Assembly: GCA_017654935.2 (NCBI GenBank)
Contig: CM065698.1
Span: 1,373,354 to 1,437,353, forward strand
DNA length: 64,000 nt
Direction: 5' to 3'
Origin: Phymorhynchus buccinoides
Lineage: Eukaryota > Mollusca > Gastropoda > Neogastropoda > Raphitomidae
The position numbers were made by a program, and so were the translations under genes. The first letter of the stretch is position 1, and each line of letters starts with the position of its first letter. Below the pieces are notes generated by a model, which saw nothing but the letters and a program-made list of their open reading frames with translations, had not been told where the DNA came from and made no database searches. Shown here piece after piece: positions 34 to 63,917 of this stretch.

Positions 34-1092
34 GTTTGTATTGCAGAGAAAGACACAGAGTCTGTTGAGGACAGTGTCAACTGTTTCTGTGAGCTGGTGT
101 TTGTATTGCAGAGAAAGACACAGAGTCTGTTGAGGACAGTGTCAACTGTTTCTGTGAGCTGGTGTTTGTATTGCAGAGAAAGACACAGTCTGTTGAGGAC
201 AGTGTCAACTGTTTCTGTGAGCTGGTGTTTGTATTGCAGAGAAAGACACAGTCTGTTGAGGACAGTGTCAACTGTTTCTGTGAGCTGGTGTTTGTATTGC
301 AGAGAAAGACACAGTCTGTTGAGGACAGTGTCAACTGTTTCTGTGAGCTGGTGTTTGTATTGCAGAGAAAGACAGTCTGTTGAGGACAGTGCCAACTGTT
401 TCTGTGAGCTGTATCTGTTTGTATTGCAGAGAAAGACAAAGAGTCTGTTGAAGACAGTGTCAACTGTTTCTGTGAGCTGGTGTTTGTATTGCAGAGAAAG
501 ACAGTCTGTTGAGGACAGTGCCAACTGTTTCTGTGAGCTGGTGTTTGTATTGCAGAGAAAGACACAGAGTCTGTTGAGGACAGTGTCAACTGTTTCTGTG
601 AGCTGGTGTTTGTATTGCAGAGAAAGACAGTCTGTTGAGGACAGTGTCAACTGTTTCTGTGAGCTGTATCTGTTTGTATTGCAGAGAAAGACAAAGAGTC
701 TGTTGAAGACAGTGTCAACTGTTTCTGTGAGCTGGTGTTTGTATTGCAGAGAAAGACAGTCTGTTGAGGACAGTGTCAACTGTTTCTGTGAGCTGGTGTT
801 TGTATTGCAGAGAAAGACACAGAGTCTGTTGAGGACAGTGTCAACTGTTTCTGTGAGCTGGTGTTTGTATTGCAGAGAAAGACACAGAGTCTGTTGAGGA
901 CAGTGTCAACTGTTTCTGTGAGCTGGTGTTTGTATTGCAGAGAAAGACAGTCTGTTGAGGACAGTGCCAACTGTTTCTGTGAACTGTATCTGTTTGTATT
1001 GCAGAGAAAGACAGTCTGTTGAGGACAGTGTCAACTGTTTCTGTGAGCTGTATTTGTTTGTATTGCAGAGAAAGACAAAGAGTCTGTTGAAG
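34..1092 (+). repeat. tandem array of 3' splice site plus exon start (units 61-67 bp)
   Basis: About 16 copies of a unit that runs from a polypyrimidine-like TTTGTATTGCAG into AGAAAGACACAGAG and ctgtttctgtgagctg. The last copy is the real acceptor and first part of the exon at 1069. Units vary (61, 63, 64, 65 bases), partly by CA/AG gains and a TGTATC insertion. The long open frames here on both strands are by-products of the repeat. Confidence 0.9.
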
Positions 1093-1224
1093 ACAGTGCC
1101 AACTGTTTCTGTAAGCTGGAGACGGGACACTTCTACCTCAAGCCTCAAATTAATCTTGGCGCCATGTCTAACTGCCAACCTTTTAACGAGTTCTGCAGAC
1201 CTGGATTCCAGCCCACACATACAG
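1069..1224 (+). CDS. TNFR exon: cysteine-rich domain part 1
   Basis: Acceptor TATTGCAG ends at 1068 and donor GTTAGC starts at 1225. The exon encodes 51 full codons with cysteines at 12, 14, 35 and 42 and the segment CQPFNEFCRPGFQPTHTG, typical of the end of a TNFR CRD module. The phase-1 end joins cleanly to the exon at 10899. The acceptor and first ~55 bases of this exon are the template of the tandem array just upstream, so which acceptor copy is used is not certain. The last copy is chosen because only it continues into unique coding sequence. Confidence 0.8.
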
Positions 1225-4200
1225 GTTAGCATCAATGACGGTTTAAAGAATGAACAATTATTTGTTAATTAACCCTCTTATATTCGTATTGTTTGAGACC
1301 AAACTTCTGCTAGATTTCGTATTTTTTTGGGAAATGTAGCCCCAAAATGGGTTAGTGTGGTTTATGCTTCACCATAGCCAGACATAAATATCTACAGCCC
1401 TGAAAATTTGCATGTTTGGTCACGATGCTTTGTTCGTGGGTGTGTTTTGAGTGTCTCAGACTGAATGGTCGTGTCATTGCCAACTAAATATCACCAAATG
1501 TGTCACATTTTATGGTTAACATTGTAAAACAGCACACTGACATGAGGTTTACTCATGCACATGCATGTTAGTTTGGTAAAAGTGAAAGCCGAAGCCTACC
1601 TGACCTGGTCGGTTCTCTGTCCATCGCTTCAGCTCATAGTCATACTGCTAATCCAGTGAGTGTCGCAGAAAATGGTCAACTGTCACCAATAAAACCTCTC
1701 TTGAAGTAGTTCAAACCACAACTGTACATGGTTTGTATGCACTTTCCCACGCTATAATACACTTTATATATATACACACACACACACAATCCCCCAGAGC
1801 TGTACAGTGTGTACCACCACTAACTGTGTCATTGCATTGATGTCACCCCATGACACAGGTGTGCACCCCACCCTCCACCCTGAACACAATTCTACAGCTG
1901 TGTCATGGTTATCACGGAAACATTATTTATTCTTGCTATGATACACAATAATAAAGGCAACACGTAGGCCTAGGCCTAGACATTTTCATCGTGTGTGACC
2001 TTCTTCCAAAGTGGGTCAATTGAGCCTTTGTTTACTTGCTTTTGTATTGCGTATGTTTGTTTCATCTGCTGCTGTTTTGAAGAATGTGAGGGGTCAAAAC
2101 AAAAAGAATGATGGAGAGGGACTGCAGTGTTTGGAAGTGCGTGTTGGGGCCAGAACATTGTTGAAACGCATGCCGCCCTGCACGCCGTTAGTGGTCGCCA
2201 TTTTGTTTGAAGCGATGGGAGTAGAATGTTGACAACTTGCCTTCGGAATCGCTATCGTTTTGCTCTAAATTACCACCTAAATCCACACCTCACTCCTATT
2301 CTTACTCTTCATTGTCCTATTTTTCCATTTCCTCGATAATATTATCCTACTCCTCTTCCGAAATTCTGAGAAATCCTCACAATCACAGGCCGTAGCATAT
2401 CTAGCAGACGACCAATTCATTGTTTCGCTCTCACACTTCCATTCACAAGTTCCACGCAGGGTTTGTTGCCTTTCTTTCTGAATACACACAGAACTACACC
2501 CCATCATAATAGAAGGACGTTCATTGGTCTATGCCCAACGTGCTGCCGACTTCTGTGACCCTTCCATGCTCTCTCTCATGCTGTGTGCACGTGATGGAAA
2601 AGTACAGACCACATGGCTACGCCAAATTGCGTTCTGAAAACATCGGGCAGTTCAGGGAGATCCCGTTTACATCCGCTGTGAATGCGAGAGGGTTAAGTCG
2701 TAGATTATATCAAGGCACAATCTCAAAGTATTAGGTATTAGGTACTTTATAGTCACAGAGGCGTCTCTGTGAAATTCGGGTTGCTCCCACCTGGAGAGCG
2801 CGTTGCAGCCAGAGGCGCGCCACCCAATGTTTTTGTGGGTTTTTTTTGCATGCGATTTTTGTGTGACTGATGGGGGGAGGGGGGGGGGGGGGGGGTAAAT
2901 TTTGACCAAATGGCAACTTTTTCGTTGCCACTGGGTTTAATGTATGCTAAGTGCATGGGCACACGGGACCTCGGTTTATCGTCTCATCCAAAAGACTCCA
3001 CGTTCAGACCGTAAGGCCTAGTGCAAAGTGAGAGGAAAAATCCCCTGTACCCAGGTTCGAACTCGGGTTTACTTGACACGAAGCGAACGCGCTACCACTG
3101 TGCCACTCTACACCGTTAAAGTGTCATCCCTTTACCAAGTTCTGTATACGTTGATACAGGTAGTGTCAATGATCAATGTTACATTGATTTGTTACTACTT
3201 CAGTCACAGATTAATCTGGGAGTCATCTCTAATTTTCTGCTTTTTAAAGATACACTGACCCACCACGATTAAGTCCCTTGGTTTTTTTCTGCATAGCTGT
3301 GACCCATATAGAAATGCCCCCAACTTGAAATTGAGGCTGCTCTTTAAAATAATAGTAGTAGTAGTAGTAGTAGTAGTAGAGGGACTGGCTTCTGCCTAAG
3401 CCTCACGGCTTATAATACGTCCCATCCAGAATGTTTTCTATAATTAGGTTGCATTTGCATGCGAAAACAATCAAACTATGATTGCAATATCAATCATCAT
3501 AATCATAAAACAATTCACTAAAATTTTCAATTTTGTCAAGTAGATTTTTGAAGGCGTTAGTGATGGTGCATTTTTTAGTTCAGGTGGCAGTGAGTTCCAG
3601 GAGTTAGCAACTCTGTTACTAAAACAATGCTTACGTTTGTTAGCGTTATACCGTTGAACTTGTACTTTCCCCTCTTGGTTTCTAGCTGTGTCAGACAAGG
3701 ATGGTGAGAAGAGAGACTCAAAACTGATAATGTGATATCAACTAAGTTGTGAAAATTTTTGTACATTTGAATGAGGTCACCTCTTATCCGCCTACCCTTT
3801 AGTGAATGTAAGTTTAACAGTTTGAATCTGTCATGGTACGTTAGATCTTTACAACTTTTTACTAATTTTGTTGCTCTCCTTTGGACTCTTTCAACTGATA
3901 ATGATTGTCTCTTAAGATATAGGTACCAGATAACGTTACCATATTCTAAGTGAGGGCGAACCATAGACTTATATAATAACAAAAATGTTTCCTTATCTAT
4001 TTTCATAAAATAATGTTCTTTTAATTATACCCAACATCTGGTTTGCTTTGCTAACTGCTTTTTGAATATGAATATCAAATAATAATAAAATATCAAATGT
4101 GACTCCAAGATCTTTTTCTTCTTTACATGGCTCTATCTTTTGTACATCATTTTCAAGTTTCATAAAATAATCATACTCGGGGTTGTTTTTGCCAATATGC

Positions 4201-63735: not shown

Positions 63736-63837
63736 GTTAGTGTGGCATGGGGTTTAATTATCACACACACGCGCACGCACGCACGCACGCACATCACTTT
63801 ATGTTGGTTGCCTTATATATTGTACTTTTACTAGCTG

Positions 63838-63917
63838 TAAACACCCCCACCTTCTTTTTCCAACATATCCAGCAGTTCTTTGACTGCGTCCTCAATGCTG
63901 TCAGAGACTCCAAAGTA
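63838..63917 (+). pseudogene. degenerate downstream copy of the TOR third exon
   Basis: AACACCCCCACCTTCTTTTT ... CAGTTCTTTGACTGCGTCCT ... GAGACTCCAAAG|TAGTG repeats most of the exon at 63634 with a few substitutions, including loss of the GT donor (AAGTAG). It looks like a dead duplicate. Confidence 0.85.

Follow-up and report, generated by a model that had tools for sequence, protein, structure and literature searches.

Genes and repeats in the window

The window, i.e. the whole 64,000-nucleotide stretch analysed, contains exons of two genes on the forward strand. Six exons of a TNFR-like gene (1069-1224, 10899-10971, 15138-15265, 17242-17332, the transmembrane exon 18431-18528, and 19814-21343) can be spliced into a single open frame, and the same applies to three exons of TOR (60848-61097, 61620-61858 and 63634-63735). 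The eight boundaries at which tandem copies had been noted in the preliminary description (1069, 10899, 15265, 17332, 18528, 60848, 61097 and 63634) are exact splice junctions, as both genes are open in frame when spliced there and the TOR product aligns to residues 17-202 of human mTOR, at its N-terminus (E=3e-71). For the other gene, Pfam searches returned PRIMA1 (E=1e-5) and a TNFR-like domain (E=0.009), both below the curated cut-offs; its putative label comes from a reading of its cysteine-rich and transmembrane pattern.

The protein at 48609-49688 on the reverse strand carries a UbiA domain (E=2e-37) and was identified as UBIAD1. It adjoins TOR (forward strand, 60848 onward) and the two are transcribed divergently; the human UBIAD1 and TOR genes presumably also lie close to each other. 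Among the best 120 of 1184 relatives, the identity of UBIAD1 was 78 % to Babylonia areolata, 75 % to Littorina saxatilis and 58 % to Branchiostoma lanceolatum. A tree that included 20 of the 120 placed the window sequence as sister to Babylonia (100/98), with Littorina next (99/98). The host is therefore a caenogastropod and not a cephalochordate.

At 21.4-60.8 kb no Pfam family was found at 0.001 in the scanned ORFs (78 of the 131 with at least 62 residues). Domain matches to endonuclease or reverse transcriptase mark fragments of non-LTR retrotransposons at 6034-6849 (reverse strand), 43386-44054 (forward) and 52586-53392 (reverse, below the curated cut-off), and the 445 bp at 26677-27121 are an uninterrupted, perfect CT repeat. 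By eye, the stretches 15727-16174, 18190-18290 and 32790-32960 are similar to each other, one of them in inverse orientation, and resemble a short interspersed or inverted-repeat element, with an array expansion at 15727-16174.

Copies of exon junctions in the flanking introns

We searched for copies of 18 junctions by comparing exon-edge probes (at most 60 bases of exon plus 20 of intron) with the adjacent 1 kb of intron, with 300 shuffles per junction; the exon 6 donor probe was set at 21342, one base short of 21343. Intron-side copies spanning the junction were recovered at nine of the 18, with scores of 53-143 against shuffle maxima of 25-39. These are the acceptors 1069, 10899, 60848 and 63634 and the donors 15265, 17332, 18528, 61097 and 63735. 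The other nine junctions gave background scores of 14-23, inside their own shuffled ranges for the 1 kb flanks, and 60-bp probes centred on the junction detected spanning copies at eight junctions. At least eight cases had been claimed, on both acceptor and donor sides; our count is nine (four acceptors, five donors), with 63735 added to the earlier list. At two of the nine, 60848 and 63735, the duplication is old, with few and degenerate copies, and does not form a high-copy array.

The arrays were delimited with Tandem Repeats Finder. At the acceptor of TNFR-like exon 1 (32-1119) the unit of about 63 bp consists of about 14 intron and 51 exon bases and has 16 upstream copies, and at that of exon 2 (8702-10907) a 56 bp unit including 9 exon bases has 39 upstream copies. 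Exons 3, 4 and 5 carry their arrays on the donor side: 15212-15647 (unit 128 bp, three downstream copies, the last one truncated), 17281-17784 (spacing 98-134 bp, four downstream copies) and 18469-19215 (unit 95-98 bp, seven downstream copies). The acceptor array of TOR exon 3 (62221-63645) comprises 23 upstream copies, in units of 53 and 68 bp with about 9-12 exon bases.

The TOR gene also shows older duplications, and these took in nearly whole exons. Upstream of exon 1, the old duplication at 60571-60942 includes a copy at 60682-60774 (77/93 identical) and a weaker one at 60571-60616 (41/47). The donor-side duplications of the same exon extend over 61022-61328 (Tandem Repeats Finder array 61022-61223), with copies at 61125-61208 (70/85) and 61240-61326 (69/90) and a further donor-bearing remnant, recognised by motif only, near 61455. 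Most of exon 3 recurs in degenerate form at 62126-62205, upstream of the acceptor array (62/85 identical; score 170, where the highest of 100 shuffles was 102). The donor-side duplication at 63706-63943 contains an exon copy at 63831-63913 (73/83) and the junction-spanning copy 63885-63943.

In the TNFR arrays and at the acceptor of TOR exon 3, most copies share more than 93 % identity with the exon unit, the exception being the short exon part of the exon 2 array (0.888). The older TOR copies are 73-88 % identical; they lie on either side of exon 1 and of exon 3, in the latter case reproducing most of the exon. As the copies range from near identity down to about 73 %, duplication near the exons must have recurred over time. 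The copies, their splice sites, their frames and their range of ages are directly visible. This variety is also what makes it extremely unlikely that the arrays were created or enlarged by misassembly: although one published amphioxus case was aberrantly assembled in the draft genome, according to the part of PMC3087553 consulted, the copies here vary in substitutions and unit length, and several are old and degenerate.

A single junction array is present in each of nine of the 11 visible introns; the probe scan demonstrated none in the intron 10971-15138 or in the one after 21343. Both ends are known for seven introns (TNFR 1-5 and TOR 1-2); an array adjoins one end in six of them and neither end in the seventh, and in no case are both ends affected. 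The earlier statement that the exon is always the end of the array is true of the copies found here, and this is largely explained by selection, since exon-side copies would change the protein.

Decoy splice sites

Out of 96 copies, 95 cover the splice dinucleotide; the remaining one, that of 63735, has no alignment over it. All 95 keep AG or GT, which could mean that, as the preliminary description had suggested among other processes, the decoy sites are maintained by selection, e.g. for buffering or tuning splicing. A first invariance test pointed in the same direction (product 0.011 over six arrays), but it was inflated by truncated end copies. Once these were handled, conservation at the splice site did not exceed that elsewhere in the unit (Fisher P=0.98 for the dinucleotide and P=0.43 for the wider motif; the six dinucleotide ranks multiply to about 0.13). 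We consider selection on the decoys very improbable.

Use of the 95 sites, as defined by motif, would keep the frame in 35 cases, and in only one of them would the frame also stay open. The other 94 decoys would break the frame or meet a stop, and therefore the exon-proximal site must normally be used. The one open-frame decoy is the first of the three TOR exon 1 donor copies (copy identity read from the sequence). Splice-site scores were calculated with generic weights, and on this scale the decoys reach the true sites in the TNFR exon 3, 4 and 5 arrays as well as in the two TOR arrays scored; at the TNFR exon 1 and 2 acceptors, by contrast, the true site lies above the decoy median, the exon 1 decoy list including the true site. 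With decoys as strong as the true sites, site strength alone cannot explain the choice. In exon definition, splice sites are paired across a short exon. We infer that the decoys are silent and that exon definition is the reason.

The frameshifts and stops of the 94 decoys also argue against the copies being in use as alternative or nascent exons or introns, as in the intron gain proposed to occur via mirages. Such use would agree with the presence, before and after TOR exon 3, of degenerate copies that reproduce most of it and with the first TOR exon 1 donor copy, which would lengthen the protein in open frame (1/95), and new introns can form from repeats at human exon-intron boundaries, as stated in the portion of PMC2812944 seen. 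We regard it as improbable.

Other arrays with splice-like sites

Two further arrays may be related to exons. An 18-copy array at 27793-29514, with a strong acceptor-like site in its unit, ends 45 bases before the putative last TNFR exon (29559-29777). The putative junction at 29559, a nineteenth outside the 18, gave only background in the exon-edge probe scan and in the exon-copy search; it resembles the array unit at P=0.044, and the array is possibly a decayed junction array. The 21-copy array at 21611-22660, with a donor-like site in its unit, lies directly against an acceptor-like AG at its start and could indicate an unrecognised exon; the acceptor-like site is of ordinary strength (7.1 with the generic weights, a score reached by 171 sites in the window).

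In the intronic arrays at 6972-7873 and 27302-27706, all or most of the units contain a very strong acceptor-like site on the sense strand (scores 10.5 and 13.3, generic weights), with no known exon there. In non-junction arrays splice-like sites favour the sense strand in seven of eight TNFR cases and in three of eight elsewhere, counts that are uncorrected for the T-richness of the introns. A match to TNFR exon 1 was found at 3193-3270 (53/79; score 137, maximum 116 in 100 shuffles).

Chance or a bias to exon edges

The preliminary description held the association with junctions to be far beyond chance. In a seed test, duplicated segments were placed at random for the 31 arrays in the window (200,000 trials). 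A junction is spanned by seven of the 31 arrays against 0.51 expected, and no trial reached this number; restricted to the two gene bodies, seven of 12 arrays do so against 0.65 expected, again with 0/200,000 trials as high. End-anchored overlap under circular shifts gave P=5e-4. A comparison with virtual junctions at 6000 random positions (5829 after 171 low-complexity probes were dropped) found 257 of the 5829 to be one-sided, i.e. 6 % of those not two-sided, against which nine of 18 gives a binomial P=3e-7, with the exon side of the real junctions unscored.

The claim fails, however, for plain overlap between arrays and junctions: arrays are so dense in these introns that no excess is seen (P=0.38); similarly, 31.5 % of the virtual junctions had any copy and the real junctions did not significantly exceed this (P=0.08). 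The excess thus concerns the start and end points of duplications and not the amount of sequence covered. Without any exon-edge bias, introns full of minisatellites would have some duplications that catch an exon edge by chance, and the figures for plain overlap, the large part of both genes covered by arrays and the 24 of 31 arrays away from known junctions are all compatible with this. When duplication events rather than covered bases are counted, the 7 against 0.51 speaks against it, even with much longer seeds (P=3e-5 and 2.5e-4), and we find it unlikely. Every P value is optimistic because the window was flagged for the pattern, and a mutational bias to exon edges is suggested, not proven, by this one window chosen for it.

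Proposed origin of the arrays

The structures are probably minisatellites across splice junctions, of the same kind as the "mirages" of amphioxus, arising by recurrent local duplication, with the intron copies tolerated. Tandem duplications of roughly 50-180 bp would recur locally near exons. Where the duplicated stretch takes in one exon edge, the extra copies would lie inside the intron and would be tolerated because they are spliced out. Under exon definition, only the copy adjoining the rest of the exon would have a partner splice site at an exon-sized distance, and the tolerated copies could then expand, contract and decay like other minisatellites.

As to a process that starts at exon edges, there are more junction-spanning duplications than random seeds give, but plain overlap is as expected, and anchoring at the junction is possible but unproven. 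Slippage driven by hairpins found no general support, as one of 12 units, an old TOR copy, has a fold with z below -2 relative to its shuffles. Seams compared by eye at the unit edges displayed no consistent pattern of microhomology. In the six arrays inspected for homogenisation, the exon-end unit is set apart clearly in the exon 1 array (0.946 vs 0.987) and slightly in two, with the opposite in three.

A further and more doubtful suggestion is that minisatellites of this snail lineage arise preferentially at exon edges. A mutational process linked to splice sites or exon borders, either independent of that in amphioxus or common with it, might then be steadily rebuilding the introns.

Comparison with known systems

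The preliminary description knew of no named system, but amphioxus mirages have this structure (PMC3087553 and PMC3902484, both consulted in part, as are the sources below). The name goes back to Canestro et al. 2002, as cited in PMC3087553. Mirages have been described in Adh3 and the globins BflGb6 and BflGb9 (PMC3087553), to which PMC3902484 added PGBD5. In the sections seen, they are minisatellite-like tandem copies across exon/intron boundaries at either exon edge, with AG/GT signals in most copies and the real exon as the array end (PMC3087553, PMC3902484), and RT-PCR suggested normal splicing despite the mirage (PMC3087553). These excerpts also report length polymorphism, including somatic, and, in a globin cluster, an exon-end unit that escapes homogenisation.

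Variable internal tandem repeats at exon-intron boundaries were also described in human segmental-duplication paralogs (mean unit 30 bp, four copies; PMC2812944). Like the arrays in the window, they are boundary minisatellites that affect gene structure; unlike them, they are, in the text seen, differences between recent paralogs and their copies may stay in the transcript. A tandem duplication crossing an intron-exon boundary in potato (PMC4974935) differs, as far as the consulted part goes, in being a single duplication that gave a new intron, with no array. For molluscs, no report of junction arrays was found in the open-licence literature searched, and two gastropod papers, in the parts seen, have repeats inside introns only.

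The structure is real and has a named precedent, in a phylum that is new as far as the literature was searched. Like amphioxus mirages, the tandem units of the window span boundaries (9/18) at both exon edges (four acceptors, five donors) and keep AG/GT (95/95). Here, in the sequence of one haplotype, they reach 39 copies and, within 64 kb, affect nine of the 18 junctions examined in the two genes. The difference is one of distribution, not of structure, as the host is a caenogastropod whereas the cases found under that name are cephalochordate. Mirages have so far been reported as a cephalochordate peculiarity, and the same structure at half of the junctions of two mollusc genes suggests a wider process, one that would enlarge introns, provide additional splice sites and perhaps give rise to new introns, and it makes mirages countable across long-read genomes.
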